NCBI GenBank assembly: GCA_041874725.1
Contig: CP097466.1
Location: 6,425,672 to 6,489,671 of the forward strand
Direction: 5' to 3'
Length of the DNA: 64,000 nt
Origin: Duganella sp. BuS-21
GTDB taxonomy: Bacteria; Pseudomonadota; Gammaproteobacteria; Burkholderiales; Burkholderiaceae_D
Position numbers and translations under genes: made by a program
Shown here: positions 44,702 through 60,894 of the stretch, one piece after another
Position numbering within the stretch: the stretch's first letter is position 1
Layout: each line of letters starts with the position of its first letter
The notes under the pieces: generated by a model
Databases searched by the model: none
Seen by the model: the letters and a program-made list of their open reading frames with translations, nothing else
Told to the model about the DNA's origin: nothing

Positions 44702-44729
44702 CGCGAATAACCAGCACTGCCAACTATTT

Positions 44730-44745
44730 CGATGCAGAAGCGGCT
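44730..44745. repeat. left att repeat
   Basis: CGATGCAGAAGCGGCT, identical to 59523-59538 inside the mnmE 3' coding end. Confidence 0.8.
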
Positions 44746-44830: not shown

Positions 44831-44873
44831 TCTCGCTGCGCGCTTGTCGACGGGCCGCTATCATGAGCACCAG

Positions 44874-45909: not shown

Positions 45910-45948
45910 CGATCGGGGGAAAATTCCCGGTGATTTAAAATCAAGGAG

Positions 45949-45982
45949 AGCCAGTGCCCATAAGGGTTACTGGCTTTTTTTG
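45949..45982 (+). terminator. terminator after the 302-residue ORF
   Basis: AGCCAGT/ACTGGCT stem, 13-nt loop, followed by TTTTTTTGTTTT on the plus strand. GGGAAAAT-type palindromes flank it on both sides (45915-45930, 45994-46006). Confidence 0.75.
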
Positions 45983-46050
45983 TTTTACTTGCCGGGGAAA
46001 ATCCCCAGCTGTGAAGTAGAGCCATCGAATATCACAAGGAGTGACATGAC

Positions 46051-46478: not shown

Positions 46479-46897
46479 CTGCCAGAAAACGAAACGCCTC
46501 CGGCAAGGGAGGCGCTCGACCTACAAAGCTGGCGGGCGGCGTAGGTGGGCAAATCAAAGTTCTGAAGTGCTCCAACCAGTATATCGCAAAGCTGCGTCGG
46601 GAAGTGCGCCGCGCCGGCCTGTTCCTGCGCGACACCACCGGACGCAGCCAGCGCGAGACGCTGCTTGGCGTGCTGCAATACCTTGGCAGCCGTGGGTTAA
46701 ACACACTGGAGGGCGTCGGGCTTGGCTTCTATCGGATCGCCACCCGCGTGCAGGAGCTGCAGGAGGCGGGCTTCAGCATTGACTCGCGCCCTGAACGTGT
46801 CGAAGGCCCGGACGGCCTGGTGCACTGTCGCATCGCGCGTTACGTCTTCTGCGGCCGCCTGCAGGACGCGCAGGGCAAACTGGATCTTGGTGAATGA
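46475..46897 (+). CDS. winged-helix DNA-binding protein
   Basis: A 140-residue protein. A basic N-terminus (MTARKRNASGKGGARPTKL) precedes a winged-helix-like segment, SQRETLLGVLQYLGSRGLNTLEGVGLGFYRIATRVQELQEAGFSI...VHCRIARYVF. Similar proteins sit upstream of mobilisation and replication genes in such elements. The start at 46475 overlaps the AlpA-like gene stop by 4 nt. Role in replication or control is inferred. Confidence 0.65.
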   Translation: MTARKRNASGKGGARPTKLAGGVGGQIKVLKCSNQYIAKLRREVRRAGLFLRDTTGRSQRETLLGVLQYLGSRGLNTLEGVGLGFYRIATRVQELQEAGFSIDSRPERVEGPDGLVHCRIARYVFCGRLQDAQGKLDLGE

Positions 46898-47006
46898 TCG
46901 CCGCCGCCCACCGCCTTTGCGCCGTGGCGCTGCGCCCGCTGCCGCCACCACCGCCCAGCCTCTTGGTCCTGCTGGCGCTGGTGTGCACGGCAAGCAAAGG
47001 GTGTGC

Positions 47007-48371
47007 ATGACCGACGCGTTGTACTTGCGGATCAAGAGCTTGAACACCCGGACCGTGCGCGGCGTTACTTCGCCCAAGAACATCGTCCGGGTGGCGGCCT
47101 TGCACAACCTGCGCGAGATACAGGCCGAGTTGGGCGCCAACGCCACCAGTGGGATCAACCCCGCGCGCATGCACCTGAACTACCAACTACGCGGCCCAGC
47201 GACCGCCGACGATGTGGCCGGCCTCGCGCTGGCGCTGCTGGACAACGCCGGCGTGCAGTCGCTGCGCCGTGACGCGTGCATGGCGCTGGAACTGGTCGTG
47301 AGCGTGCCGGCCGATACCACCATCGACCACCGCGCATACTTCTCCGCCGCCGTGGCATGGGCAGACGCCCATTTCAATGTCCCTATCCTGAGCGCCGCCG
47401 TCCACCTGGACGAAGCCGCGCCGCATTGCCACATCCTGCTGCTGCCGCTGGTCGCTGGCCGAATGCAGGGCGGCGCGCTCGCCGGTGGACCGGCCAAGAT
47501 CCGCGCCATGCTGGCCGACTTCCAGCAGCAGGTTGCGCAGCGCTTCGGCCTGACCCACCAGCCGCGCGCTAAGCGCCTCAGCAAGCCGAACAGGGATGCG
47601 TCCGGTCGCATGGTGCTGGACGCCCTGCGCGCGCGCCCTGAGCGCATGAGCGAGCCGGGCATGCGCGATGCGCTTATCTCAGCCCTTGGCAGCCAGGCGG
47701 AGACGCTGCTGGCACTGCTGGGCTTAAGCATGCCGACCACCAAGGAGAAGGCAAAGAGCTTCGCGGACATCATGACGGCGCCGTGCAAGCCTGATCGCAC
47801 GCGTCGCGCAGCATCGAACACGATGCATATAGACGTTGCACAAAATTTGAGCAATCAGGATGGCAAGAAATTCGACAACGTCTATGTCTCTGTAGACGTT
47901 GCTCCTTCACCCTCCCCAAATCCAGCAGGTGCGCAGCCGCTGCAGCCGGCCACCGACCAGGCGACCGGCACCGCCGACCAGCGCCAGCACTCAGCCGAAA
48001 ACTTGGCCCAGCAGCAGGCCGCCCAGGTCGAGCAGCGCGAGGCCCGCACCGGCGCCGCTGACCAGTCGGCCGAGGGTATGCAAAGTCCTCTGCACACCTC
48101 CGCGTCGACCACCGGCCAAGCCGCGCCGACCAGCGCCAGCACCGCGCCGGCCAAGCGCAAGCGCACTGCGACAAGTCGCCACTCGGCCGACACAGGGGGT
48201 GTCCGCAAAATTTCGGCCCCCCCTGAGCCATGCAGAGCCGGGCGAGGTCGACGTGAGCAATTCTGCACGCACCACGCCGCAGTCCACCGTCCGCGCCGGC
48301 AGCAGAGATGCATCCAGATCTGGACACATGCCCATCGGTGCGGCCAGCGACTTCCACCGCCAGCGCGATGA
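47007..48371 (+). CDS. MobV/Pre-type relaxase
   Basis: A 454-residue protein. The metal-binding three-His motif of the Mob_Pre relaxases is present at residues 133-142, HLDEAAPHCH (HxDE..PHxH). The N-terminal MTDALYLRIKSLNTRTVRGVTSPKN is like Pre/Mob starts. It would nick at oriT and pilot the single strand through a helper secretion system. The last 60 residues (from about 48190) read in a low-GC3 frame and overlap a better-coding +1 frame; see findings. The ATG at 47007 is chosen over the upstream shadow frame. Confidence 0.8.
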   Translation: MTDALYLRIKSLNTRTVRGVTSPKNIVRVAALHNLREIQAELGANATSGINPARMHLNYQLRGPATADDVAGLALALLDNAGVQSLRRDACMALELVVSVPADTTIDHRAYFSAAVAWADAHFNVPILSAAVHLDEAAPHCHILLLPLVAGRMQGGALAGGPAKIRAMLADFQQQVAQRFGLTHQPRAKRLSKPNRDASGRMVLDALRARPERMSEPGMRDALISALGSQAETLLALLGLSMPTTKEKAKSFADIMTAPCKPDRTRRAASNTMHIDVAQNLSNQDGKKFDNVYVSVDVAPSPSPNPAGAQPLQPATDQATGTADQRQHSAENLAQQQAAQVEQREARTGAADQSAEGMQSPLHTSASTTGQAAPTSASTAPAKRKRTATSRHSADTGGVRKISAPPEPCRAGRGRREQFCTHHAAVHRPRRQQRCIQIWTHAHRCGQRLPPPAR

Positions 48372-48543
48372 CGACCACCCGGCCGCGACCTGGTGCAGTG
48401 TCCGCGGTGAGTTCGTGCAGGCCACCGGCCCGCCGCCCAGCGCCTGCCACTGCACCAATGACCAACCAACCGGCCCGGCGGTACCGGGAGCGAAGTGGGA
48501 TTTCCCTACTTCGAATAACTTGAACCGAAAGGCAGCACCATGA
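48253..48543 (+). CDS. possible small ORF overlapping the relaxase tail
   Basis: 96 residues from GTG 48253 in the +1 frame relative to the relaxase (MSNSARTTPQSTVRAGSRD...GHMPIGAASDFHRQRDDDHPAATWCSV...). GC3 is strongly biased, as in real genes here, whereas the relaxase frame is not. Either a separate gene or the true continuation of the relaxase after a frameshift at the C7 run near 48216-48222. Its stop overlaps the next ATG (ATGA). Confidence 0.45.
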   Translation: MSNSARTTPQSTVRAGSRDASRSGHMPIGAASDFHRQRDDDHPAATWCSVRGEFVQATGPPPSACHCTNDQPTGPAVPGAKWDFPTSNNLNRKAAP

Positions 48544-49172
48544 AATTGAAATTGAACAAAGACGGCTCGGCCGTCGTCAAGGATGGCAAACCCGTGTACG
48601 TGCACGACAGTGGGCGCGAGGAAGCGTTCGACGCCACGGCCGCCTGGAGGTTGGCATTGAGCGCGCACTTCGCAGCCTCGCCGGTGATGGCCGGCCTCAA
48701 ATTGCCCGCTGACGTGGCCGCATCATTTTTCGGCGACGCGTTCCGCCTCGAAGGGGGCAAGCTGATCGCGATCGATAAGCACGGCATCCAGTTGTATTCG
48801 CCAACGCGCCACGGTGAGGCGGCGAACTTCGATGAAGCGTTTGGGCAACTGGTCGACCGTTACGAGCGCAAGGGCATGATTCTGCGCGAAGGCGGCGCAC
48901 TTCCCGCACCTGGTGCTGGTGCTGCCGGCGCTGCGCCGGTTGGCCAGCCCGCCGCAGGCCGCGCGGTGACCCGCCAGCAGTTCGACTCAATGGACCCGGA
49001 ACAACGCATGCGCCACATCAAGGCCGGCGGCTCTGTCGCTGATGGCGCCACCGGGCCAGCACCTGCCGCGCCTGCGCGTGGCGCCAAGGTGATGACGCGC
49101 GCGCAGTTCGACCAGTCCTCGCAGGGCGACCGCGCGGCATTCATCAAAGCCGGTGGCTCCGTGTCCGACTGA
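48540..49172 (+). CDS. phage scaffold-like protein
   Basis: A 210-residue protein. The N-terminus MKLKLNKDGSAVVKDGKPVYVHDSG and the segment FGDAFRLEGGKLIAIDKHGIQLYSPTRHGEAANFDEAFGQLVDRY resemble phage capsid-assembly/scaffold proteins (DUF6651 type). It ends with two repeats, VTRQQFDSMDPEQRMRHIKAGGSVAD and VMTRAQFDQSSQGDRAAFIKAGGSVSD, the tail motif of those proteins. The long coiled-coil middle of the phage version is missing. No capsid gene is nearby. Assignment by recall of family sequence; function here unknown. Confidence 0.55.
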   Translation: MKLKLNKDGSAVVKDGKPVYVHDSGREEAFDATAAWRLALSAHFAASPVMAGLKLPADVAASFFGDAFRLEGGKLIAIDKHGIQLYSPTRHGEAANFDEAFGQLVDRYERKGMILREGGALPAPGAGAAGAAPVGQPAAGRAVTRQQFDSMDPEQRMRHIKAGGSVADGATGPAPAAPARGAKVMTRAQFDQSSQGDRAAFIKAGGSVSD

Positions 49173-49286
49173 GCAAATCGGCCCGCTGAGCGGCTGGCGC
49201 TGCTCGGCTAGACCAACCTACCCGGCGAGGCGTGTTCGCGTCGCCACGGAGCGATAAACCGCCTTGCCGGGTAAACGGAGATGGAT

Positions 49287-49586
49287 ATGAACGACAGAGA
49301 ACTCATAAACGCCGCGTTGCAGTGGCACGCAGCCCACGTCCGCCGGCTGGCCGTAGGCCGGGAGAAGCGTCGCATCGACGCCCAGCTCAAGGCCGGCGGC
49401 GATGACGGCTGGAACCTACAACGAATCATTCAGCAGAACGAAACCGGCCGCCAGATCACCGAACTGAAACGCCGCGAATTGGCCGCCCTGCGCGCGCTGG
49501 CCAAGGTGTGCGCGAAGCAGCGCGGCCACCTGCAGGCCGCCGACGTCATTGACGTGGACGGCGCCGTGGTGCTGTTGTCAGCCTAA
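49287..49586 (+). CDS. hypothetical helical protein
   Basis: 99 residues, not recognised. Strongly helical and charged (WHAAHVRRLAVGREKRRIDAQLKAGGDDGWNLQRIIQQNE...TELKRRELAALRALAKVCAKQ). ATG 49287 is preferred (GGAG 6 nt before) over 49281. An inverted repeat GCCGGGT/ACCCGGC (49220-49272) lies in the leader. Confidence 0.6.
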   Translation: MNDRELINAALQWHAAHVRRLAVGREKRRIDAQLKAGGDDGWNLQRIIQQNETGRQITELKRRELAALRALAKVCAKQRGHLQAADVIDVDGAVVLLSA

Positions 49587-49620
49587 TTCCATAACCGCCC
49601 ACATGGGCAGAAAGCAAAAC

Positions 49621-49956
49621 ATGAACCCGACTATCTACCGTAACGGCGAGCCCGCTAATCTTGGCGGCCCCGAAATCCTTGTCATTTGCGGCGACATCTT
49701 GCGCTGTAATGGCGATGTCGGCGACGATGAGCCGGTACCGCTGGAGGGTATGCAGTTCGCCCGCGAGGCTGTAGCTGGCATCCTCGCAGCTGCGCGCGCC
49801 GGCGGCTACAAGCAATGCGATATCCTGGAAACGCTGCTGCTGTGCGGTGATTTGACGCCACGCATTGGCGCCATGGCCAGGGACGCATGTGCGGCCGCCG
49901 GAGTTCCCGCGCTGCGTGAGCTGTTCGCCCGCATCGGCCCCTTTGTGGACGAATGA
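49621..49956 (+). CDS. hypothetical protein
   Basis: 111 residues, not recognised: NPTIYRNGEPANLGGPEILVICGDILRC...PLEGMQFAREAVAGILAAARAGGYKQCDILETLLLCGDLTPR. Good GC3 coding bias. It precedes the DUF2280 gene and may be part of the same transcript. Confidence 0.55.
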   Translation: MNPTIYRNGEPANLGGPEILVICGDILRCNGDVGDDEPVPLEGMQFAREAVAGILAAARAGGYKQCDILETLLLCGDLTPRIGAMARDACAAAGVPALRELFARIGPFVDE

Positions 49957-49994
49957 GCCGCTTCTACCTTTACCCAGCTTGACAGATTCGCACC

Positions 49995-50363
49995 ATGGCC
50001 AACATCCCTACCGCCGTCGCAATCCATATCCTGCAAGGGCTGGCGTGCTTTGACACCCCCGAGCAGGTGGCCGCCTCCGTCAAGGTGAATTTCGGCCTGG
50101 TGCTGACCCGCCAGCGCATCGAGGCGTGGCACCCTGAGCGGCGCGCCGGCGCCAAGCTTGGCGCGCACTGGAGGGAGATATTCTACGAGACGCGCGCTAG
50201 ACTGCTGGCCGAAGTCGAGAACATCCCGATTGCCTGCCGGTCTTACCGTCTCAAGGTGCTAGACCGAGTTGCGCACCAGGCTGAGGCGATGGGCAATATC
50301 GCGCTGGCCATGCAGATTCTGGAGCAGGCCGCGCGCGAGGTCGGAGCCGAGCAGACCGGCTAG
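49995..50363 (+). CDS. DUF2280 protein, terminase-small-subunit-like
   Basis: 122 residues closely following the DUF2280 pattern of phage proteins encoded in the terminase small subunit position: LQGLACFDTPEQVAASVKVNFGLVLTRQRIEAWHPERRAG and a helical C-terminus YRLKVLDRVAHQAEAMGNIALAMQILEQAAREVG. A small-terminase-like protein recognises packaging sites. No large terminase, portal or capsid gene is found in the element, so it stands alone. Stop overlaps the stop region of the minus-strand lipoprotein gene. Confidence 0.75.
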   Translation: MANIPTAVAIHILQGLACFDTPEQVAASVKVNFGLVLTRQRIEAWHPERRAGAKLGAHWREIFYETRARLLAEVENIPIACRSYRLKVLDRVAHQAEAMGNIALAMQILEQAAREVGAEQTG

Positions 50364-50503
50364 GACTGGCGCTCAGTGCAGCCCTGCATGCTGGCCGCAT
50401 GCGGAATTTCATCCGGGTTGCAAGGTGCGACGGGAATGGTGGCGCAGCCCGCAAAGGCGCACGAAATGATGATGGCCGTGATGATACGAATAAGCTTTTG
50501 CAT
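50360..50503 (-). CDS. very small lipoprotein
   Basis: 47 residues from ATG 50503: MQKLIRIITAIIISCAFAGC with lipobox FAGC (Cys20), then ATIPVAPCNPDEIPH. AGGAATACCAC lies in front as SD. Read convergent to the DUF2280 gene, ending in its stop. No family recognised; size and type resemble spanin-like or entry-exclusion lipoproteins of mobile elements, which is only a guess. The 288 bp upstream contain nothing else evident. Confidence 0.55.
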   Translation of the reverse strand: MQKLIRIITAIIISCAFAGCATIPVAPCNPDEIPHAASMQGCTERQS

Positions 50504-50791
50504 GTGGTATTCCTAGAATCTTGCGAGTGGTGGAGATTGGTATAGGAAAAAACCGCACACGTTTTAGCCAAATTGCATCTCACACGCAAAATAAAGATTC
50601 GGGCCAGCCAGCGTCACGAGGATCGGAGCCGGCGCGCACTATTCCAAAGTGCGCAAATTTAAACCGCGCACCATCTCGGAAAGCTAGCGTTCATGCGGGT
50701 TTGAGGGAATCTAGTGCCGCACCGCCCGAAACGATAGTTGCGCATTTTCGACCCGCTGCGCAACAAAACGAACTTTTCAAAAGGAGAGAGC

Positions 50792-51037
50792 ATGCCCAGA
50801 TGGACCGACGCAGCGCGCGCCAAGCAGGCCGCCCTGATCGCCCGCTGGAAGCCGTGGCAGGCCGCCACCGGGCCGCGCACCGCCGACGGAAAGGCCAAGA
50901 CTGCCCGTAACGCCGACAAGGGTGGCGATGCTGGCCGCGCCCAGCGCCTTGCCGATGCTCACACCGAGCTGAAGGCGGCGCTAGCTAAGGTGGACAGGCT
51001 CAGTAAGGCGAAACGTCGCAGGCGGGAAGCGCCCTGA
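50792..51037 (+). CDS. small basic conserved protein
   Basis: 81 residues: WTDAARAKQAALIARWKPWQAATGPRTADGKAKTARNADKGG, a short motif (W.PW..STGP.T..GKA..ARNA.KGG) that recurs in many betaproteobacterial accessory regions. Very basic and Ala-rich. Excellent SD (AAGGAGAGAGC). Function unknown. Confidence 0.65.
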   Translation: MPRWTDAARAKQAALIARWKPWQAATGPRTADGKAKTARNADKGGDAGRAQRLADAHTELKAALAKVDRLSKAKRRRREAP

Positions 51038-51178
51038 TGGGGGCTGCGGGTGAGGGGTATGTTGCAGCGCGTATCTCGTATGCTATCTGCGTCCATCCTC
51101 AATGAACACTTCAGTTAACTTTATGTAGTTCCGAAATGCAACCTCCATGTTGTTATTTTTGAATTTAAGGAGGATGTG

Positions 51179-51394
51179 ATGACCACTCAAGCGGAAGCCA
51201 TAGAGGCTTTGATTAAATTAAGTCGAGATTCTACGGCTGGAACAGCCGTAAGGTGCGCAGCTGCCGAAGGTTTGGGATATGTTGGAGGCTCAGAGGCACG
51301 GACCGAGTTGCTAAAACTCATGACGACACATAATGCTGGAACTGATATCAGGTCTGCTGCTGCAAGGGCACTCGGCCATGCAGCTAAAAGCTAG
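51179..51394 (+). CDS. small HEAT-repeat-like protein
   Basis: 71 residues: two helical repeats (AVRCAAAEGLGYVGGSEARTELLKLM and DIRSAAARALGHAAKS), like a minimal HEAT unit. SD AAGGAGG precedes ATG 51179. Lower GC than neighbours. Not recognised beyond the repeats. Confidence 0.6.
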   Translation: MTTQAEAIEALIKLSRDSTAGTAVRCAAAEGLGYVGGSEARTELLKLMTTHNAGTDIRSAAARALGHAAKS

Positions 51395-51969
51395 CAAGCT
51401 GATACGGAAAATCCTGCAACGCCCGGTTGTGGGGAAACCCCACTTTGCCATCGTCAGCTCTAAAACCGGGAAAATCCCGGTATTTTAAATCCCATAGCGC
51501 TGCCGGTGCCGATGTCCTGAGATTTAAGGAGATGTTTGCCGGCGCGCTAGGTGCAGCCACCGCCGCCATTCGCGAGAACTCGCGAGCCTTCGCGACTCCT
51601 CGCGCGGTCGGCTGTAACGGCACCTGACACGGCACCCGTAACGCCTGCAACGCATTGCAGGTCAGCGCCAACGTTTCGGGAAGCCTATCGAAAGAGTTTC
51701 GGGAACCCTTTGCGGAAGCCTATCGGGAACCCCTTCGAAGCCCCTTGCAAGCCCCTTCCATGAGCCTGCGGCGTCCGCATTCCGTCCGCAATTTGTCCGC
51801 GCCGCTGCGGACGTGCTGCGGAAACCCAGCTGGTTCCTATCCGGTACTAGGCCGGTTTCAACGGGCGTTGAGCACTCGCTGGAAATCACTCAGAAGCCGG
51901 GTAGATTGCGGGGGGGGACTTTAAGTCCCTCACTAATTCTGCAGAATTAACCTCCGATAGAATGAGGGA
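51395..51969. other. 575-bp repeat-rich non-coding region
   Basis: No convincing gene. It holds GGGGAAACCCC (51431-51441), the dyad ACCGGGAAAATCCCGGT (51465-51481), CGCGA repeats (51570-51605), degenerate GGGAAGCCTATCG-like units (51678-51745) and GTCCGC repeats (51780-51815). Such iteron-like composition suits an origin of replication or transfer, but this is not shown. Confidence 0.45.
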
Positions 51970-52275
51970 ATGTCAAAAACTCCCAAATTCCCCGGCCCGC
52001 TGACCGCGCGCGGCGCCGTCCTGGCTGTGCTCTTGTCCGATGCGGACCAGACTGGCGTCGAACCGCTGCAGGGCCGCACGTCGTTGGCCGCCATCGTCAA
52101 GATGCTGAAACGCAAATACCATTAGCCCATCGAGTTCAGCAGCTTCCCGTCCAATGCTGGTGATGGCCGCGCCACTAGGGCGACGGTGTACAGCCTGTCG
52201 GTGACGGTTGTGATGAAAGCGCTGGACAGCGGCGGTCGGGAGTGGCTGGACAGCAGAATGAGGGCCAACGCGTGA
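51970..52275 (+). pseudogene. conserved element protein with in-frame amber stop
   Basis: The frame from ATG 51970 reads MSKTPKFPGPLTARGAVLAV...VKMLKRKYH, then TAG (52123-52125), then continues PIEFSSFPSNAGDGRATRATVYSLSVTVVMKALDSGGREWLDS to a stop at 52275. The whole of it, read as TGG, matches a conserved betaproteobacterial protein that has W-P-I-E at this point. One G-to-A change would create the stop. Pseudogene unless amber is read through. Confidence 0.75.
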
Positions 52276-52525
52276 CTTCGCAGCATGGCTGACATCGTGC
52301 GTTAAGGTCGGAAGGTTCGAAGATGTTTTGATGCTGCGCAAATGTCAATGATGGGTGAGGGAAAGGCACCACACCTCCCCAGAGAAACGTGCCTTAATGT
52401 TGGCCGTCATACGTTGCTGTTCAATTTTTGAACTATAATCGGCGCAAGATGCCGTACATTTTTGTGTGCGACTCAACCGTCAAGGTACTTTCGAGCCGAA
52501 AAGAGATGATGCCGTGCCGCTAAGC

Positions 52526-53335
52526 ATGACCCGCCCCGCAGACTTGCCTGATTTCTCCAAGCCGCCCTTGAACGAGGTTGTGTTGGGTGTGCAGTTTTCT
52601 CCACCTGCTGGATACACACAGATTCAAGCTGGTGAGGTTTGGAGCCTCTATCGGGAAAGATATCCTCGGGTAGAGGAATATATGCCTTTACCACCGGCTT
52701 ACGAACTCTTCGGGCTTCCAGGTATGGGGCAGACCTCCAATCAATTTAGTTTCTTGGAGGGGCCATTGCATGACCGATATTGGTTTCTACGGCCTGCCGG
52801 GGATGAGCTGATTCAATTCCAAAACGACCGTCTTCTGCATAATTGGAGAAAAGTCGGTGACAGCTCTAATCCATACCCAAGATTCGAGAATATGCTCCCT
52901 CAGTTTGAGGATGAACTGAATGCTCTAGAGCGTTATGTGACTAGATTAGTTCCGCAAAAGCTCACGATAAATCAGTATGAAATCTCGTATATAAACCATA
53001 TACCAGTTAGCCAGACTGGCGATTTTCGGGTGGCGGAATGGCTAAACTTCTTGAAGGAAGTTCCCGCTGATGCCGAGGGATTTCAGTTTAGTTTTCGCGA
53101 AGTTATTAAGGAAAACGAAGACTCTCTCTTGGGAAGACTGATTTGTGAAGTGGTTGGCGGCTATAAGCCAACTGGAGAGAGATTGATTTCTCTATCGCTG
53201 ACGGTCCGCGGAGCTCCGGGTGATTCGACAATAAAATCTGCGCTTGATTCTATCGTTAAAGCCCGAAGGATAATTGTTGATAAGTTTTCCGAAATAACTA
53301 CATCAGTAGCTCACAAATTATGGGAGCGAAAATAA
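52526..53335 (+). CDS. TIGR04255 family protein
   Basis: 269 residues from ATG 52526, beginning LPDFSKPPLNEVVLGVQFSP, the hallmark of the sporadically distributed TIGR04255 family; family role unknown. Mixed alpha/beta with no membrane segment. It opens a three-gene operon with two small proteins. AT-rich relative to the host. The GTG-initiated longer frame from 52466 is possible but the conserved start fits 52526. Confidence 0.8.
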   Translation: MTRPADLPDFSKPPLNEVVLGVQFSPPAGYTQIQAGEVWSLYRERYPRVEEYMPLPPAYELFGLPGMGQTSNQFSFLEGPLHDRYWFLRPAGDELIQFQNDRLLHNWRKVGDSSNPYPRFENMLPQFEDELNALERYVTRLVPQKLTINQYEISYINHIPVSQTGDFRVAEWLNFLKEVPADAEGFQFSFREVIKENEDSLLGRLICEVVGGYKPTGERLISLSLTVRGAPGDSTIKSALDSIVKARRIIVDKFSEITTSVAHKLWERK

Positions 53336-53337
53336 TT

Positions 53338-53814
53338 ATGAATAACACGATTAGCGCATTTTCTGGATTAGATACTTCGTTTGTTAGGGGCGCACAGGCT
53401 CGTGCGCAAAGGGGTACATTGGTGCACTCTGCTCATTGGCGAGCTGCAGTGGCACGCCGACTTAAGGAGCTTGTAGCGCTGCAGGCTGGTTGGGATGGTT
53501 ATAAGGCTATTCCGGTTAAAGCTGAAAATGCTTCTTTTGCACTTGAGCTACTCGGTGTTATATGTGATGTGCACACACAGGCCCCGCAAATCGTCCCTGG
53601 AACAAGTGGAGATTTGCAGATTGAATGGCATACCGCTGTTGGGGATGTCGAGATTCACATTGCTGGCCCCAATAAAGTGCATGTGTGGTATTCCATTGCG
53701 GCAGACGATGATGATGGTGTGTCATGTGAACCGCGAAGTAATTTTAAAATGGTAGCGGTATGGGTAAAAGAAATCGCAGGGGACGAGATTGCCACTCAAC
53801 CTGCCATCGTATGA
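53338..53814 (+). CDS. hypothetical partner of TIGR04255 protein
   Basis: 158 residues, starting 2 nt after the TIGR04255 stop. A basic helical first half (RRLKELVALQAGWDGYKAIPVKAENASFALELL) is followed by a beta-rich second half with GDLQIEWHTAVGDVEIHIAGPNKVHVWYS. LQAGWDGYKA-type motifs occur in small proteins found beside this family. Function unknown. Confidence 0.7.
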   Translation: MNNTISAFSGLDTSFVRGAQARAQRGTLVHSAHWRAAVARRLKELVALQAGWDGYKAIPVKAENASFALELLGVICDVHTQAPQIVPGTSGDLQIEWHTAVGDVEIHIAGPNKVHVWYSIAADDDDGVSCEPRSNFKMVAVWVKEIAGDEIATQPAIV

Positions 53815-54262
53815 TGCCAGTGGGCGAGTAACTCCACATGACCATCCTGGCATACTGGCGGATGATTGGGTTATTCGTCGTATTTCTCAGCAGTGGGTCA
53901 TAGCTGATGTGAAAGTCCCCGGAGGAAAACGCCTTTCCACACAGGCGTTTGAATCTTCATCCACCGAGCACGGGGGAGGCTTGTCTTTGGATTTGCAGAC
54001 GCAAATCTTGGAGGCCGGCGCAGATGTGGTCACGCACGTCACGACTCCTAGATGGATAGCGTCTGTTCGACTTAAGGTTCAGTCATTCCGTGAGTTAGAG
54101 TACCTAGTTGGTTTTTCTCCAGTTCTGGCCGCCCCTGGTATTGAGGCTAATCCCCATCATGGAGAGGCGTGGGGGGATGACACCAAAGGAAAACGAAAAA
54201 AACTACTGCGGGCTAGTGAGTGGCTGGTGCCCATTGAGGGATGCCAAGTCAGTCCAGATTGA
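53789..54262 (+). CDS. hypothetical protein, third gene of the TIGR04255 unit
   Basis: 157 residues from TTG 53789 with AGGGGA 6 nt before. It has VIRRISQQWVIADVKVPGGKRLSTQAFESSS...GGGLSLDLQTQIL...NPHHGEAWGDDTKGKRKKLLRASEW, a pattern I associate with proteins in defence-rich accessory regions, but the family has no assigned role. Overlaps the previous gene by 26 nt, so translation is coupled. Confidence 0.65.
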   Translation: MPLNLPSYDASGRVTPHDHPGILADDWVIRRISQQWVIADVKVPGGKRLSTQAFESSSTEHGGGLSLDLQTQILEAGADVVTHVTTPRWIASVRLKVQSFRELEYLVGFSPVLAAPGIEANPHHGEAWGDDTKGKRKKLLRASEWLVPIEGCQVSPD

Positions 54263-54413
54263 TTCCTAGGGGTTGACGGCAATACTTGTATCGGCTGAAC
54301 CTTAATCTCTAAGAGATAACTGTTTTTATTTCCTGTGTCGCAACATCATCCCACAGGATGCTAATCTTCGTTGCGACGAAAACGCCTTGACGGTTTACTT
54401 CTGCTGCCTATCC

Positions 54414-54441
54414 TAAAAAAAGCACCGAACAAAGACGGTGC
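54414..54441 (-). terminator. minus-strand terminator
   Basis: GCACCG/CGGTGC stem with a loop of about 8 nt and seven T on the minus strand. No obvious gene on that strand ends here; the region 54263-54653 is otherwise non-coding. Confidence 0.6.
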
Positions 54442-54467
54442 CGGGTTTGACAGCTCGAACTGATGAA

Positions 54468-54499
54468 GGCGGACAACCGCCACCCTGGCGGCTTTTTTT
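54468..54499 (+). terminator. plus-strand terminator after the TIGR04255 unit
   Basis: CCGCCA-CCC-TGGCGG stem followed by C and seven T; an overlapping GGCGG...CCGCC alternative stem is also possible. Confidence 0.7.
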
Positions 54500-54653
54500 C
54501 GTCCGTACCATTGCGTCTCCTATGGAGTGGCGGTGGCGGGGAGGCTTCGGCCTGCCGGTTTCCTTTGTCACCGGTCTGTCAACCCTGCCACTTGCCGCTC
54601 CTCCCGTTTGACAGCGGGTTGTGCGGTTCATCACCGACAATGGAGGCTACAAC

Positions 54654-55139
54654 ATGCCAGGCACCACCACACCCAGCGCTAGCACGGCGCGCGCACCATC
54701 CCACATCACCAACCTGCTGGCCGAGCTCCACCACGCCGACCACATCATCAAGACCATGCTTCGCGCCATGACCGTGCAGCAGCAGGCGCGCGTCGGCGCG
54801 CAGCTGGAGGCGGCCGGTGTAGCTGGCGAAGGAATGACACGCCACCACGAGCGCGCGGCCGTCATCGCGGCGGCCACTGCGGCCCCGGCCAGCGCCACCA
54901 CCGGCACCGCGCCGGAATTGCTGGACATCGAGGCTCAGGCGGTCGACGTCCTAACGCAGGCAGATCACGCCGACATTTTGCTGCGCCTGCTGTTTGAGCG
55001 ACTGGACCAGGAGGCCGACACGATGCCCGCCGGCGCCACCATCAACTGCCTGGCCACCTGCACCGCGCGCACCGTGGAGCTGATGCGCGAGGCTGGTAAC
55101 AACATCGTGGCTCTGGTGGCGAAAGGTGGTGCGAAATGA
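54654..55139 (+). CDS. hypothetical helical element protein
   Basis: 161 residues, Ala-rich, helical: NLLAELHHADHIIKTMLRAMTVQQQARVGAQLEAAGVAGEGMTRHHERAAV, and a second half with DIEAQAVDVLTQADHADILLRLLFERLDQEAD. SD TGGAGG precedes ATG. Its TGA overlaps the next ATG (ATGA). No family assigned; such proteins are common in ICE/plasmid backbones. Confidence 0.6.
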   Translation: MPGTTTPSASTARAPSHITNLLAELHHADHIIKTMLRAMTVQQQARVGAQLEAAGVAGEGMTRHHERAAVIAAATAAPASATTGTAPELLDIEAQAVDVLTQADHADILLRLLFERLDQEADTMPAGATINCLATCTARTVELMREAGNNIVALVAKGGAK

Positions 55140-55687
55140 ATCGCCCGGTGATGGTCACAGGCCCCGCCACCGGTGCGACGGTGTACGACGTATTCAACGA
55201 ACGGGGCGTGGTGCTGCTGCTGGGCGTGACCCACGCGGTTGCACGTCGAACAGTGGACGAGCGACAGGCTGCAGCTGATCCACAGTGGGCCGGCGAGATC
55301 CGCATTGTGCTGGCGCGGCGCGGCCCCGAGGTACTGGCAATGCGGACTACCATCGAACGTGTGGCCGGCCGGGTTGAGGTATGGTGCGAGGTCGACCGCC
55401 TGCTGCCCAGCGGCCTGTCGATGGCAGAGTTGTTCGTCAAGGTGCGGCCGCAGCTGGTCGCCGCTATCGAGGAGGCCGCCGCCCGCGCACCAACCCAGCA
55501 GCCGGCCCCGCAGGCGGTGGGCATGAGCATGGATGTGGGCGCCGCTGACCCGGGCGTTGTGCTTCAAGTGCACGACCCGGTGGCCTGCACAACGGATATG
55601 GCCGGCCAGCTAGATTATCTGCAACGTATCGTCGAAAAGGTGATTGAGGGGCAGCGTGCTTGCGGGGAGTGGCGCATGGGGCTGTAG
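55136..55687 (+). CDS. hypothetical protein coupled to previous gene
   Basis: 183 residues with ordered start (VMVTGPATGATVYDVFNERGVVLLLGVTHAVARRTVDERQAA) and low-complexity Ala-rich middle; not recognised. Translation overlaps the previous gene by 4 nt. Confidence 0.55.
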   Translation: MNRPVMVTGPATGATVYDVFNERGVVLLLGVTHAVARRTVDERQAAADPQWAGEIRIVLARRGPEVLAMRTTIERVAGRVEVWCEVDRLLPSGLSMAELFVKVRPQLVAAIEEAAARAPTQQPAPQAVGMSMDVGAADPGVVLQVHDPVACTTDMAGQLDYLQRIVEKVIEGQRACGEWRMGL

Positions 55688-55749
55688 TTACGGTTTTTCA
55701 TGGAGGGGACTGCGCTTGTGAAATTAAGTAGCGAAATGCCGCCCGAGCC

Positions 55750-56157
55750 TCACTTCCTCGTGAGCAGCGTCGCAACGATCCCGCCAATTGCAATTAGCGG
55801 AGTAAGCCAAGCAAGCCACCGCCCCCAACTTTCGTGACGCGCTTTCGTCTCATGGCGAATTGCTTCGCGCAGCTTTGCTCTTCCAGTCTGGCTAAGTGTT
55901 TGCTTGTAAAAATATTGCCCCCCTTGCCAGTCTTCATTGTCATCGTCCTCGAAGGGGCGAGGCGGGGTTGGCAAATCCAACTTTCGAGCTTTTGCTAAAA
56001 CCGAATTGCTTCGTAGGAGTTCCTCTTCCTCATTCAGCATATCTAATTCATAGCGATGGTCCCAATGCACGGACTCCACCTGTTCTGGTGTCTGCTTGGC
56101 AGCTCTTGCCACTTGAACTCGATGGGTGAATATTTCATTAATCAACATTCGGTCCAT
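55750..56157 (-). CDS. hypothetical membrane-anchored protein
   Basis: 135 residues from ATG 56157 (SD AAAGAGA). Acidic, charged soluble part (EQVESVHWDHRYELDMLNEEEELLRSN) ending in one C-terminal membrane segment, LAWLTPLIAIGGIVATLLTRK. Not recognised. Unlike its neighbours it runs on the minus strand. ATG 56244 would lengthen it to 164 residues without coding support. Confidence 0.6.
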   Translation of the reverse strand: MDRMLINEIFTHRVQVARAAKQTPEQVESVHWDHRYELDMLNEEEELLRSNSVLAKARKLDLPTPPRPFEDDDNEDWQGGQYFYKQTLSQTGRAKLREAIRHETKARHESWGRWLAWLTPLIAIGGIVATLLTRK

Positions 56158-56280
56158 TGATATTCTCTTTAGCCGAGAAATAGGAAGGCGTCGTATAACC
56201 CAAAATCGGAAGCCGACGAAACGAGGAGCGGATTGGTTTTTCATATTGCTATTTTACAATGCACCTAAGCTCGTAGTTCC

Positions 56281-56396
56281 TGTTAGAAAACGATCGATTT
56301 CCAACATCACCAAACATCACAACCAATCACTGTTGAAAATATAAGGCTTGCTATTTCTAACAGGTGCATATATTCCAACAGTGTTTTCTAACAGCC
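56281..56396. promoter_or_regulatory. candidate resolvase res site
   Basis: Three related half-sites around the resolvase gene start: TGTTAGAAAA (56281-56290), TTTCTAACAG (56354-56363, opposite orientation) and TTTTCTAACAG (56384-56394). Spacing and inverted layout fit serine resolvase subsites overlapping its promoter. Confidence 0.5.
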
Positions 56397-56413
56397 CTAA
56401 CCGGGAGATCAGC

Positions 56414-56980
56414 ATGGCAACCTTCGCATACGGCCGCGTCAGCACCACCGAACAGAGCTCCGACAACCAGAAGCTGGAAATCGAAGCGGCCGGCCATGTG
56501 GTCGATTACTGGTTCGCCGATACGATCAGCGGCAAGACCAGCGCGACGCAGCGCCCGCAGTTCGCCGCGCTGCTCGGCCAGATCCGGAACGGTGAAACGC
56601 TGGTGGTCGCGAAGCTGGACCGCCTGGGCCGTGACGCGCAGGACGTCGGCGCCACCGTCAAGCTGTTGGCTAGCCGCAAGATCAGCGTCATCGTGCTGCA
56701 ACTGGGCAAGCTGGACCTGACCTCGCCAGCTGGCAAGATGATGCTGACCATGCTCGCCGCCGTGGCGGAAATGGAGCGAGATTTGCTGGTGGAGCGCACG
56801 CAAGCGGGCCTGGCTCGTGCGAAGAGCGAAGGCAAGACACTGGGTCGCCCATCGAAGACGACCGCCGCGCAGCGCGCCGACATCATTTCGAAGTACACCG
56901 CTGGTGAGAGCGTCAGCGCCTTGGCGCGCATGTTCAGTGTCTCGCGTGCAAATATCCTGGGAATAGTTAAGCCAGCGTAG
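56414..56980 (+). CDS. serine recombinase (resolvase/invertase)
   Basis: A 188-residue small serine recombinase: catalytic Ser in YGRVSTTEQS, DTISGKTSATQRP, KLDRLGRD, AEMERDLLVERTQAGLARA, GRPSKTTAAQ, and a C-terminal HTH (GESVSALARMFSVSRANILGIVK). Full-length for resolvases of this type. ATG 56414 follows GGGAGA. Could resolve dimers of the excised element or invert a segment. An ideal terminator follows at 57001-57024. Confidence 0.9.
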   Translation: MATFAYGRVSTTEQSSDNQKLEIEAAGHVVDYWFADTISGKTSATQRPQFAALLGQIRNGETLVVAKLDRLGRDAQDVGATVKLLASRKISVIVLQLGKLDLTSPAGKMMLTMLAAVAEMERDLLVERTQAGLARAKSEGKTLGRPSKTTAAQRADIISKYTAGESVSALARMFSVSRANILGIVKPA

Positions 56981-57000
56981 TTGCTGGTGCAACTCCCTCG

Positions 57001-57024
57001 GCCCAGCCCGTGCTGGGCTTTTTT
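57001..57024 (+). terminator. terminator after the resolvase gene
   Basis: GCCCAGC-CCGT-GCTGGGC stem followed by six T. Confidence 0.85.
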
Positions 57025-57180
57025 AATGGGGAGGGCGTCCTTATTCCTGAGCGCATGCAGTCGAGAAGTCTACGCATACGTCACAAAATTTAGTCGCAGT
57101 GCATCTATCGAAAACCGAAGAAAGAAGGTATCCTAAAATTGCAAATATGCAATCGAAATTAAATTTTGGGTACAGCGCTT

Positions 57181-57831
57181 ATGAAAAATCCTGGGCTATA
57201 CGCGTTTTACGAAAAGCTCTACTTCCATGAAGTCGAGGCGCGGGAACAAATGACCACACGCCTTCAAATTCCACTGGCATTGTTGATCTCCATCGTCGGC
57301 GCCCTAGGCTTCATGGTTCAAAATCTGGAGCGCGGACAGACCGGCGCGTGGGCCCACATTTTCTTCTGCCTCTTTCTCGCTTCTACCGCATTTTTGACGG
57401 CCAGCGGATATCACTGCATTCGATCTGCTTGGGGCCATGATTATTCCATGCTGCCTGTCGCCTCAGACTGGGACGACTACCACGAGCAATGCGTGGGAAC
57501 TTATGCTATCTATCCAAATAACAGGCAATTGGTTTGGACTGCCATTCAGACCGGGATACACGCAAAGTATGTCGAGTGTGCCTCCGTGAATGCACGAATC
57601 AATGAGCTGCGTTCGTTTCATTACCACATGACAATAAAGTATCTCATCGTTGCTGTTGTTCTAGGATTTTTCGCATTTGTGAGCTTCTACTTTGGTAACC
57701 TCGACAAGTCCTCGCATAATAAGGCGACGGAAGTTAGGCTAGTTGCCCCGATTGAATTGAAAGGAGCCGAAAATGGCAAATCAACACCCCCCACCGCCAC
57801 CGCCACCACCACCGCCGACTCGCCACGTTAG
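57181..57831 (+). CDS. three-segment membrane protein, first gene of poly-proline operon
   Basis: 216 residues. An N-terminal soluble helix (MKNPGLYAFYEKLYFHEVEAREQMTTRLQIP) runs into three membrane segments: LALLISIVGALGFMV, AHIFFCLFLASTAFLTASGY, IKYLIVAVVLGFFAFVSFYFG. Between the second and third is a soluble domain with DYHEQCVGTYAIYPNNRQ. The layout resembles SLATT-like membrane effectors, but the family is not certain. Its last 20 residues are out-of-frame with, and forced by, a poly-proline ORF. Confidence 0.65.
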   Translation: MKNPGLYAFYEKLYFHEVEAREQMTTRLQIPLALLISIVGALGFMVQNLERGQTGAWAHIFFCLFLASTAFLTASGYHCIRSAWGHDYSMLPVASDWDDYHEQCVGTYAIYPNNRQLVWTAIQTGIHAKYVECASVNARINELRSFHYHMTIKYLIVAVVLGFFAFVSFYFGNLDKSSHNKATEVRLVAPIELKGAENGKSTPPTATATTTADSPR

Positions 57832-57877
57832 AGACGACCGACGCCCTCCAGCTCCACCACCACCGCGTAGAGGTTAA
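57773..57877 (+). CDS. 34-residue poly-proline peptide
   Basis: ATG 57773 with SD AAGGAG 6 nt in front, inside the 3' end of the membrane-protein gene (+1 frame). It encodes MANQH followed by ten Pro, then TRHVRDDRRPPAPPPPRRG. A strong SD and a stop at 57875 give a discrete ORF. Strongly basic with two proline tracts; no known family. Could be an SH3-like ligand or an assembly tail for the membrane protein; not shown. Confidence 0.5.
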   Translation: MANQHPPPPPPPPPPTRHVRDDRRPPAPPPPRRG

Positions 57878-57879
57878 GA

Positions 57880-58002
57880 ATGACGTCAAACAAACCGACA
57901 GCAGTTCCACCGCCGCCGCCGCCGCCGCCAACCAGGTCGGTGAAAACAGAGGTGGACCCACCGAAAGTTGTTGTTCAGGTGCCTTTAGTAGAGAAAAAGT
58001 AA
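57880..58002 (+). CDS. 40-residue poly-proline peptide
   Basis: ATG 57880 starts 2 nt after the stop of the previous ORF. It encodes MTSNKPTAV, eight Pro, then TRSVKTEVDPPKVVVQVPLVEKK. It shares the layout polar start, Pro8-10, T-R, charged tail with the previous ORF, so the pair look like paralogues. Codons in the tail are non-repetitive, arguing against a pure repeat artefact. Confidence 0.5.
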   Translation: MTSNKPTAVPPPPPPPPTRSVKTEVDPPKVVVQVPLVEKK

Positions 58003-58016
58003 GAAGTAGCGCCCCA

Positions 58017-58044
58017 TGCACTCAGCAGACAATTGCTGAGTGCA
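58017..58044. repeat. strong hairpin downstream of poly-proline operon
   Basis: An 11-bp perfect stem, TGCACTCAGCA/TGCTGAGTGCA, with loop GACAAT and no T-tract on either strand. A second stem, GGATTGCTG/CAGCAATCC, spans 58070-58102 and ends just before the integrase stop at 58117. Confidence 0.6.
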
Positions 58045-58116
58045 GTAAGGATTAATATCGAAAGTGAGCGGATTGCTGGACACGACGCAAACTCAGCAAT
58101 CCAGGTCTAAGTCGAA

Positions 58117-59349
58117 TTAGGCTGCAGCCCCAAACCGACCGACCACTACCTTGTTACTTTCGTTAATCTGGGCATCAACGAAGGTAGCCCAGAGCTGTAG
58201 GATCTTTCGGCGCTCGTCCGCATACTGGGCGCGGTTATACACTCCTTTGATACCCTTGATGGAGTGAGCCAGTGCCTTTTCAATCGCATCGGACGACATC
58301 CCCATTTCATGCAGGTGCGTGGACGCCGTGCGCCGGAAGTCATGTATGACGAAGTGCTGCACGTCCGCCTTCATTGCACGCACCGCCTGGTTGAGCGTCG
58401 ATTTCGCAATCGGCCTATCCTCATAGCCGCGCCGCATGGGAAACACGAAGCGCTGGCTGTGCGACAGAGTGCGCAGCTCGCGGATCATCTCGACCGCTTG
58501 GGCCGATAGATACACCCAGTGCTCGTTGTCCTTCTTCATGCGCGCGGCCGGGATGCGCCAGATGCCCTCCTCCAAGTCGAACTCCTCCCACTCCGACTCA
58601 ATTAGTTCGGACTTGCGCACCATCGTGATCACCAGCAGGTGCAGCGCTAGCTTATAGGCTCGACTCATGTTGGAGGCGTAGACCGATCGCAGCAGACGGC
58701 CTATCTCGTCCGGAGCCAGCACGCGGGTGCGGCTCTGCGGAGTGGCGATGTACCGGGCGACTAGCTGCTGAGCGGGATTGATCGCGGCCAGCTGGCGCGC
58801 GATGGCGTATTGGTACATGCGCTTCAGGACGTTGCGGGTGAACAGCGCCGACTGCGGCGCGCCGCGCCCTTTCACCTTGTCGCAGATGGCCAGCACGTCG
58901 CCGGCGTTGACGTCGACCATCGGCTTATTCCCGATAGCCGGATAGATATCCTTGTCCAGCGCCCGGCGCGTCACCGTGCTGTACGATTTCGATTTCGGCT
59001 CGATTTCAGTCTGATACCAGTGATCGCCAAACGCGCGGACGGTATCTAGCGCTAGGGAGGCGCCCCGATCCTTCTTCGCATCGGCAATCGGCGAGACGCC
59101 GGCGGCCACCGTCTCGCGGTACCGGTCCGCCCGGCCACGCGCATCCTGCAGCGTAACCGATGGGTATTCGCCGATCGTCACCATGGGCTGCTGCTTGCCG
59201 TGCAGAGAGTAGCGATAGCGCCAAATCCTCGCCCCGGACGCCATGACCTCAAGGACCAGGCCGCCGCCATCGGCGACCAGGTACCGTTTGTCCTTGGGCT
59301 TTAGCGCCTTGATGCGCTTGTCGTTGAGGGGAGTGGCGGATTTTGGCAT
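58117..59349 (-). CDS. P4-family tyrosine integrase
   Basis: A 410-residue integrase: N-terminal DUF4102 segment (PLNDKRIKALKPKDKRYLVADGGGLVLEV) and SAM-like domain (100-200). Catalytic residues are Arg245 (VRKSEL), H336-x-x-R339 (IHDFRRTAST), His362 (AHSIKG) and a nucleophile Tyr at 371 or 376 (VYNRAQY). Full length, so likely active. The gene lies next to the mnmE-proximal end of the element, with four arm-type repeats (59353-59406) right in front of its start. Confidence 0.93.
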   Translation of the reverse strand: MPKSATPLNDKRIKALKPKDKRYLVADGGGLVLEVMASGARIWRYRYSLHGKQQPMVTIGEYPSVTLQDARGRADRYRETVAAGVSPIADAKKDRGASLALDTVRAFGDHWYQTEIEPKSKSYSTVTRRALDKDIYPAIGNKPMVDVNAGDVLAICDKVKGRGAPQSALFTRNVLKRMYQYAIARQLAAINPAQQLVARYIATPQSRTRVLAPDEIGRLLRSVYASNMSRAYKLALHLLVITMVRKSELIESEWEEFDLEEGIWRIPAARMKKDNEHWVYLSAQAVEMIRELRTLSHSQRFVFPMRRGYEDRPIAKSTLNQAVRAMKADVQHFVIHDFRRTASTHLHEMGMSSDAIEKALAHSIKGIKGVYNRAQYADERRKILQLWATFVDAQINESNKVVVGRFGAAA

Positions 59350-59352
59350 CGT

Positions 59353-59406
59353 TAGTACACAGTCTTAAGTACACATGGATTTGTGTACTTAACTGTGTAC
59401 TAAAAA
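59353..59406. repeat. integrase arm-type repeats, right end
   Basis: Four copies of an (A/C)TGTGTACTTA-like sequence in alternating orientation. The last, ACTGTGTACTAAAAAAGTG, closely matches 44806-44830 at the left end. Confidence 0.65.
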
Positions 59407-59514
59407 AGTGTGGGTGTCAATCGGCATTACTTGGCAAACTTTGCACCTAAGTCTTTGATTCTATGGTGTAGAATCGCGAACTATCGGCAACGCCTGACAT
59501 ACCTTGGCGACTGT

Positions 59515-60894
59515 CTACTTTCCGATGCAGAAGCGGCTGAAGATGACGCCTAGCAGGTCGTCGGAGGAGAAGGCGCCGGTGATACTTGAGAGCTGTACTT
59601 GCGCCAGCCGCAGTTCTTCCGCGAACAGGTCCAGCGATTGGTCGCTTTGCGCCGCGTGTTCGCCCGCCCGTTCCAGATGCGCGCCGGCGTTCTTCAGCGC
59701 GATCAGGTGGCGCTCGCGCGCCAGGTAGAGCGATTCGCCGGTCTGCTGCCAGCCGGCGATGCGCAGCAGTTCCTTGCGCAGCAAATCAATGCCGATGTGC
59801 TCGTGCGCCGACAGGTAGATGTGGGTGGCGTCGTCCATCTGGTCCACCGCCGGCTTATGGCCCGACAGGTCAATCTTGTTCCAGATGCGCAGCACCGGCA
59901 CGCTTGCCGGGAAGGCGGCGGTGATGCTTTCATCCGAACGCGACGGCCCGTGGTCGGCGTCCAGCAGATGCAGGATGACGTCGGCCTTGCCGACCTCGGC
60001 CCAGGTGCGCTCGATGCCGATGCGTTCCACCACGTCCACCGCTTCTTCCGCCGCGCGGATGCCGGCCGTGTCGATGATATTGAGCGGGATGCCTTCGATC
60101 TGGATGGTTTCCGTGACCTTGTCGCGCGTGGTGCCGGCGATCGGCGTGACGATGGCGACGTCGTTCCCCGCCAGCGCATTCAGCAGCGACGATTTGCCCA
60201 CGTTGGGCTGCCCCACCAGCACCACGTTCAAGCCTTCGCGCAGCAAGGCGCCCTGCGCCGCCTGTTTGAAGACTTGCTCTAATGCGCTGACGATGCCCTT
60301 CAGTTGCCCGCGCGCGTCGGATTTTTCCAGGAAGTCGATCTCTTCTTCCGGAAAGTCCAGCGTCGCTTCCACCAGCATGCGCAGGTTGGTGACGCTGCCC
60401 ACCAGCGTGTTGACCGTTTTCGAGAACGCGCCCGACAGCGATTGCGAGGCCGATTTGGCCGCCGCTTCGGTCGAGGCGTCGATCAGGTCGGCCACCGCTT
60501 CGGCTTGCGCCAGGTCGAGCTTATCGTTGAGGTAGGCGCGGCGCGTGAATTCGCCCGGCTCGGCCAGTCGCACGCCCTGCTCCGCACCCGCTTCCAGCAC
60601 CCGCGCCAGCAGCATCTGCAGCACGATCGGGCCGCCGTGGCCTTGCAGTTCCAGCACGTCTTCCCCGGTGTACGAGTTCGGCCCCTTGAACCAGATGGCG
60701 ATGCCCTGATCGATCACGCCGCCATCGGCCTGCGTGAACGGGATGTAGGTGGCGTGGCGCGGCTTCAAGGCGGTGTCGCCGAACAACGCAGCGATCAGCG
60801 GTTTCAGGTTTTTGCCGGAGGCGCGCACCACGCCGATGCCGCCGCGTCCCGGTGCGGTGGCGATGGCGGCGATGGGGGAGGAGTCGATATTCAT
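59515..60894 (-). CDS. mnmE: tRNA modification GTPase MnmE (TrmE)
   Basis: A 459-residue GTPase that with MnmG makes the cmnm5 group at uridine-34 of certain tRNAs. N-terminal domain begins [20 protein letters not shown] and binds 5-formyl-THF. The GTPase domain has P-loop GQPNVGKSS, switch GTTRDKV, DTAG and NKID, and the C-terminus is FCIGK with the essential Cys. ATG 60894 is used because the [12 protein letters not shown] start is conserved. The 16-bp att repeat lies in the last codons (S-R-F-C-I), so the element supplies the final codons and stop. Confidence 0.96.
59523..59538. repeat. right att repeat inside mnmE
   Basis: Identical to 44730-44745. In the mnmE frame it encodes S-R-F-C-I, next to the terminal GK and stop. 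Confidence 0.8.

Follow-up and report, generated by a model that had tools for sequence, protein, structure and literature searches.

The window, by which we mean the whole 64-kb stretch of DNA analyzed here, lies at the very end of a genome of 6.49 Mb. Between a resolvase-type recombinase gene and a tyrosine integrase gene, it encodes a small membrane protein, hereafter M, and two proline-rich peptides, the first of which starts inside the M gene (Table 1). The three-segment membrane protein of the first-pass annotation was recovered as a protein of 216 residues, with hydropathy placing its helices at residues 28–46, 56–74 and 154–172; an alternative TTG start at 57166 would add five residues. 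An aromatic EKLYFHE motif lies ahead of helix 1, a short loop joins helices 1 and 2, a soluble loop of 79 residues precedes helix 3, and the protein ends in a short tail. In an alignment of 69 rows, N137 and N141 never vary, and conservation is ≥90% at E11, K12, Y14, F15, H16, E17, R27, P31, F61, Y88, Y100 and Y108. Charge counts do not decide the topology.

Table 1 Features of the M locus and of the island around it (window positions)
Feature	Position	Strand	Evidence
Resolvase-type recombinase, upstream of M	56348..56980	+	Pfam Resolvase PF00239, E 1.7e-37 (scanned from 56408)
Terminator-like hairpin between recombinase gene and module	57000..57019	+	Consensus scan with 6 hits; shuffled sequence gives 4.0 on expectation
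M, three-helix membrane protein, 216 aa	57181..57831	+	ATG 57181, stop at 57831; ORF reading and hydropathy
Peptide 1 ribosome-binding site AAAGGAG, within M gene	57760..57766	+	6 nt before ATG
Peptide 1 (MANQHP10TRHVRDDRR...), 34 aa, P10	57773..57877	+	ATG 57773, TAA end 57877
Peptide 2 weak ribosome-binding site AGAGGT, abuts peptide 1 stop	57869..57874	+	Read from sequence
Peptide 2 (MTSNKPTAVP8TRSVKTEV...), 40 aa, P8	57880..58002	+	ATG 57880, TAA end 58002
Tyrosine integrase	58117..59349	-	Arm-DNA-bind_3, Phage_int_M and Phage_integrase
Inferred island end, 3' end of mnmE (gene by eye), repeat TTCCGATGCAGAAGCGGCT	59520..59538	.	Pairs with 44727-44745, 95%
Other copy of island-end direct repeat	44727..44745	.	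Pairs with 59520-59538, 95%

Both short ORFs that the first-pass annotation had described are present. Peptide 1 (34 residues) reads in the +1 frame relative to M, covers the last 59 nt of the M gene and has its own ribosome-binding site, with an anti-SD pairing of -7.9 kcal/mol and a control minimum in the same gene of -5.9. Peptide 2 (40 residues) begins 2 nt past peptide 1. The two were also said to look like paralogues, and they indeed do, because both carry P(8–10)-T-R-x-V-[RK].

No Pfam family matched the window's M above the cut-off; when the 69 alignment rows were compared with Pfam, 16 families were matched by any row, the best at E 2.4e-4. PADLOC models gave no match to the three M proteins scanned, no recognized effector domain was found in M, and solved structures provided no useful relative. 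M matches phrog_36961 of PHROG (unknown function, E 1.8e-14) and is thus represented, with no function named, in a library of phage families. A search of 55600–59600 for non-coding RNAs gave no Rfam match at gathering scores.

Conservation and coding of the polyproline peptides

Relatives of M, of which the protein search returned 30 and the search with a profile 50, occur in Pseudomonadota, Thermodesulfobacteriota, Campylobacterota and viral contigs. Polyproline was found at the same place after M in 41 of 45 contigs (the window, L002–L022, L025–L028, L033–L035, L044, L046, L057–L066, L069, L077, L087 and L089), which are distinct but not independent; L058–L065, L069, L077, L087 and L089, for example, are related. 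Polyproline ORFs with a conserved SD and reading frame, which the first-pass annotation had proposed to look for beside M homologues, are thus widely present, and this supports its idea of a two- or three-part membrane-associated unit. Among the four contigs without polyproline, L019 and L046 have M relatives with ample flank, in L009 the sequence past M runs for just 130 bases, and L016 breaks off within M. Dropped before counting were L029 and L030 (weak, no M), L040, L048–L050 and L052–L054 (TonB-like tail matches), and L047, L051 and L055 (weak or partial, with no polyproline seen after M; taken as M, they would give 41/48). Also dropped were duplicates of loci already included or of one module (L001, L023, L024, L031, L032, L036–L039, L041–L043, L045, L056, L067, L068, L079, L080, L082, L086, L088 and L091), L092 (att site only), and L070–L075 and L093–L099 (other families).

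Runs of at least six prolines numbered 51 in the 20.7 kb around the M stops of 35 loci (same strand) and three in 456 kb of flanks (both strands). Such runs were present at 30 of the 35 loci; of the remainder, L005, L011 and L057 reach five prolines in a row, and L009 and L019 lack a run altogether. The peptides measure 29–54 residues with 23–55 percent proline, and the motif PPP[x]Rx[VI][RKQL] is present in 41 of 48. Proline codon use is mixed (CCA 180, CCG 157, CCT 64, CCC 17). Over the first 22 codons in ten viral loci, pS is 0.672 and pN 0.078 in the peptide frame, giving a pN/pS of 0.115, and the ratios in the other two frames of the same codons are 2.2 and 6.8. Purifying selection thus acts in the peptide frame only, in keeping with the frame conservation anticipated by the first-pass annotation. 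The mixed codons and the pN/pS together rule out a simple DNA repeat artefact. A scan of viral contigs with the DNA motif only gave 19 hits, 12 of which are a short ORF after an M gene; these comprise nine known module contigs and three new ones (L077, L087 and L089), whose M had been missed by the protein pattern. The other seven hits have no M upstream, and two of them (L078 and L090) are also readable as short ORFs. M is encoded together with one or two polyproline peptides of some 30–50 residues, which are selected as protein and have conserved starts.

Three coding arrangements occur: the peptide may continue the M reading frame as a fusion, may follow the M stop codon, or may use a different frame. 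The in-frame fusion of peptide 1 characterizes most near relatives; the fused tail of P0004 reads KGVTMATRPLP(n)TRQVKD, and a contig of Massilia sp. BJB1822 also carries a fused M-peptide gene. The first-pass description of the peptides as separate mini-genes therefore holds for the window and many relatives, and fails for the many in which peptide 1 doubles as the tail at the C-terminus of M. A stop codon separates M from the peptide in L025 and L026, and the sister genome L027 has a sense codon there. The window's split C-terminus is common to its two closest relatives, P0001 (95%) and P0002 (86%; proteins compared), which makes a sequencing error unlikely. A tree was built from 83 M proteins, each trimmed to 200 residues; some of its long branches meet, and on it the fused or separate state changes at least nine times, with six changes forced by well-supported branches; for proteins without DNA, "separate" here means only that no polyproline lies within the M protein. 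The window lineage is nested in a mostly fused clade of this tree, and so a split probably happened.

Fused genes retain an SD before the internal start (combined p 1.3e-8 over 11 loci, relative to other codon positions of the same gene; nine below 0.05, L005 at 0.054 and L028 at 0.265), as do separate peptides (combined p 2.3e-11 over 19 cases, 12 below 0.05), although these p values are optimistic because the loci are related. The persisting internal SDs and starts and the recurring separate forms rule out the fused gene as the only true form. By our reading, two proline peptides are present in 15 loci, and the second start overlaps the first stop in nine of them, by exactly 11 nt in six, as expected for coupled translation.

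Mobile settings and defence neighbors

The direct repeats of Table 1 bound an inferred mnmE island of ~14.8 kb (44727–59538), whose limits rest also on position because the imperfect 19-mer was found among many chance-like repeats. With up to two mismatches allowed, the genome contains a single copy of an 18-base stretch from the mnmE end, and a second repeat pair of 25 nt (44797–44821 and 59382–59406, 92%) lies inside the end repeats. The island also holds a relaxase-like ORF (46722–48371, by eye). Adjoining the recombinase gene, a 164-residue ORF with a hydrophobic C-terminus (55750–56244, minus strand) shows weak DUF4079 similarity only.

Elsewhere, the module travels in other elements. The L020 island (10.3 kb, 1213–11550) is bounded by 49-nt repeats, one of which is the end of a tRNA-Met gene, and contains integrase-like, DUF5906, GmrSD_N, HEPN and NERD genes. 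In L057, the module lies between the baseplate-assembly and tail-completion genes of a prophage that is P2-like by gene order. Palindromes of the TAACAA...GCGTTA type, as in integron cassettes, directly follow the peptide stop in L014, L021 and L022; these attC-like sites were recognized by eye (L021, L022) or by pattern (L014, L021), with no attC model behind them. A row of such palindromes surrounds the module and the next ORF at L021:7840–9220, which suggests an integron cassette array. The first-pass view of the module as integrase-adjacent mobile cargo is thus borne out by the tyrosine integrase, the mnmE island, the prophage and the tRNA-Met island.

M is rare and patchy. It was found in 6 of 392 genomes of the family (eight rows, two of them spurious), 3 of 399 of the order (the window's own included), 1 of 369 of the class (the window's own) and 6 of 398 of the phylum, again including its own, with two weak and seven TonB-like rows in addition. 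Four plasmid records carry it. GenBank phage records gave no match to the window's M; the viral scan returned none with the window's M protein alone and 11 with the later profile. An all-vs-all comparison of 386 ORFs from 27 loci detected no conserved extra partner gene beside M: the largest non-M cluster spans six loci and includes the window's integrase, and the others span only two or three.

In at least nine of 31 loci, which fall into seven groups, a defence gene lies within two ORFs of the module in one direction or the other, which supports the defence context suggested in the first-pass annotation; nine is a floor because individual scans covered only 24 of the 120 near ORFs. Most M loci have no recognized adjacent defence gene. 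PADLOC matched 179 families among the 120 near ORFs of the 31 loci vs 54 among 95 far ORFs (25 of each set are listed), a tally that is indicative only, since many families match one protein and far ORFs share contigs. The far-gene control also matches defence models, at a level that is weaker but not nil. A type IIG RM enzyme ends 11 nt upstream of M in L010, and near neighbors elsewhere include PD-Lambda-3_B (L033), Septu PtuA and PtuB (L018), a PD-T4-7-like protein (L002) and HEC-08/DUF3644 (L012). We did not count as defence loci L013 (reverse transcriptase, probably of an intron), L015 (WYL regulator, E 8e-21) or the weak L020 and L034. Beside the L015 module lies what we take to be a BREX-like locus (1514–7287, minus strand), with a BrxC-like start and the WYL regulator found by PADLOC. 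In L046, the distant M relative that has no polyproline ORF (1501–2067, minus strand of the locus) directly follows an HsdR-like ORF (by eye).

In some loci, the module adjoins genes for a TIR protein and a caspase. The gene order is M, peptide, TIR, caspase in L017, a Campylobacterota contig (2155–4274), and TIR, caspase, M, peptide in viral contigs (L063:4587–6650, L064:783–2848, L065:3366–5433 and L069:3582–5636), with neighboring genes spaced from a slight overlap to ~20 nt apart. ThsB_TIR and Peptidase_C14 were found by Pfam in L017 and L065 and by homology in L063, L064 and L069. When viral contigs were queried with one caspase, all four contigs returned, which are close relatives only, carried an adjacent M and peptide. 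TIR–caspase pairs without M or peptide are found at L073:5072–6543 and L074:4463–6251 (TIRs by eye), and the caspase family of these pairs, of roughly 324 residues, is very large, with matches for 7999 of 7999 candidates scored. The link of M to TIR–caspase is thus optional, because such pairs exist without M and M occurs mostly without them. In the window, tblastn found no match to the L065 or L017 TIRs, the neighbors being the resolvase, the integrase and unknowns; for the caspase, neither the window nor, at E 1e-40, the genome as a whole gave a match.

A candidate ligand-controlled membrane effector and its alternatives

Known systems share parts of this arrangement. Type IV Thoeris comprises a TIR and a caspase-like protease (PMC12847820, citing Rousset 2025, in the portion available); L017, L063, L064, L065 and L069 join the module to a ThsB-type TIR and a Peptidase_C14-type gene, whereas the window's M has neither beside it, and that portion of PMC12847820 mentions no membrane protein or proline peptide for the type. 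Similar to the small membrane effectors of CBASS, Pycsar and retron-type systems (SLATT, PycTM), M is a small multi-helix membrane protein with sometimes defence surroundings; however, no nucleotide cyclase or similar partner was seen beside the window's M. In profile tests, M appears to be neither PycTM nor SLATT_1: PF18967 (PycTM) and PF18181 (SLATT_1) did not match M in its own genome, hhalign against one member of each gave probabilities of 1.3 and 0.8 percent, and no SLATT family is among the 16 Pfam families matched by any of the 69 rows. P0012 and P0015 carry a precomputed PycTM label, which hmmscan of both does not reproduce at E 1.

Two-ORF abortive infection or toxin–antitoxin pairs (such as PD-T4-10; PMC9519451, in part) likewise have overlapping ORFs, a small partner and a mobile distribution, but the partner of M is a polyproline rod of ~35 residues that is doubled in many loci and can fuse to M. 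Like the antiviral hotspot cargo of prophages and satellites (PMC9122126, in part), the module rides in a P2-like prophage (L057) and a tRNA-Met island with defence-type genes (L020); in L057, however, its position lies outside the gpA–gpQ hotspot, and the part of PMC9122126 available does not mention such a module. The M profile also picks up TonB-like proteins (L040, L048–L050 and L052–L054, named by eye), in which a helix and a short stretch precede a proline run. This likeness to the M tail may be of composition only; no TonB C-terminal domain was found after the proline region, at or soon after which M ends. No description of a module of M and polyproline peptides was found in the titles and abstract starts of the best literature matches.

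Proline runs organize other assemblies, such as the PRAD/WAT of acetylcholinesterase, and serve as ligands of SH3, WW and EVH1 domains. A proline run with an arginine is the form of a polyproline-II (PPII) ligand, and PPII-binding surfaces are usually aromatic. The peptides share with these cases, by analogy only, a PPII rod with flanking Arg as an assembly or binding element; no SH3, WW or EVH1 partner was noticed. Control of M assembly or gating by the peptides is favored because the peptides have the PPII-ligand form and the most conserved patch of M is aromatic. Additionally, an abortive-infection-type effector fits the mobile cargo, the defence neighbors and the small membrane protein. 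We therefore favor, at about even odds (roughly 0.5), a small conflict module that moves horizontally and most likely acts against phage, in which M would be a membrane effector and the polyproline peptides its dedicated ligands. The proline run would form a PPII rod ending in [x]-R-x-[VI]-[RK] and would dock on the conserved aromatic, probably cytoplasmic face of M, made up of the EKLYFHE helix and the loop with conserved Tyr, Asn and Arg. The docked peptide would set the assembly or gating of M; as to direction, an inhibitory, antitoxin-like peptide seems a little more likely than an assembly factor. Overlapping, coupled translation could keep the amounts of ligand and effector matched, and one ligand copy could come in cis from the fused form. 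Infection would disturb this balance, whereupon M would perturb the membrane, halting growth of the infected cell and perhaps protecting against phage. In some loci, the module would be an addition to a TIR–caspase (Thoeris-like) operon. Topology poses a real difficulty for this ligand reading: with three helices and the N-terminus inside, a fused tail would be periplasmic and a free peptide cytoplasmic.

Several other explanations cover part of the same evidence. A toxin–antitoxin or plasmid/phage maintenance unit, with M as toxin and labile proline peptides as antitoxins and no specific anti-phage role, would fit the tiny overlapping partner genes, the mobile-element distribution and the standalone cassette-like units. 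It overlaps with the favored conflict module, and since alone it leaves the TIR/caspase operon and the repeated company of defence genes unexplained, we consider it unlikely. That the runs act in cis as translation-stall elements is unlikely; in this reading, EF-P-dependent pauses would report translation stress or phage takeover and tune M output, the peptide itself having no function. Runs of 8–13 prolines are strong EF-P-dependent stall sites, and that of the window overlies the last codons of M. However, the run occurs in frame with M, out of frame or wholly downstream, so that no single cis geometry is conserved; moreover, R-x-[VI]-[RK] after the run is conserved and changes among viral loci are mostly synonymous, which points to a peptide product. 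Decidedly improbable is an envelope-spanning strut, in which a TonB-like periplasmic polyproline tail would couple to or block an outer-membrane partner (a phage receptor system, for example) and free peptides would be decoys or regulators. The profile matches to TonB-like proteins, via helix and polyproline tail, and a simple topology that places the fused tail outside both speak for it; yet the matches extend over only about 60 positions and probably reflect composition, many M proteins are almost tailless with a separate peptide lacking an evident signal sequence, and M stops at or shortly past the proline region.

The gene neighborhood admits the further idea that the caspase of a Thoeris-like system has the peptides as its substrates or regulators, in which case standalone modules would be remnants. 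The genes are adjacent in five contigs and in two orders, and an Arg follows the proline run. Nevertheless, this is very improbable: in one comparison of loci by homology only four had this caspase, the window's genome shows none at E 1e-40, internal starts and motif persist without it, and TIR–caspase pairs exist without peptides. Finally, the window copy might be a decayed gene, with a frameshift in a fused ancestor leaving meaningless short ORFs. Its lineage does lie within a mostly fused clade, but peptide 1 retains its SD, start, proline run and tail, the same split C-terminus is present in P0001 and P0002, and separate forms are common elsewhere, making decay barely credible.

Returning to the ligand-controlled effector, we rate the module as categorically new in architecture, with a probable purpose, defence, of a known kind. 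More tentatively, it may represent a new class of immune effector, in which M is controlled by overlapping-frame PPII peptides, in cis or in trans through fusion and fission, and can be plugged into TIR–caspase signaling. If true, this would be a widespread though rare module that goes unrecognized by the Pfam and PADLOC models searched; its peptides can be missed because they fall below the usual gene-finder limits or are taken for another protein's tail. The repeated switches among fused, overlapping and separate coding offer a clear natural case of a single peptide retained throughout. Polyproline peptides as signaling or gating ligands are best known from eukaryotes. The module makes such ligands a testable idea in bacteria and ties these peptides to TIR–caspase genes and phage cargo.
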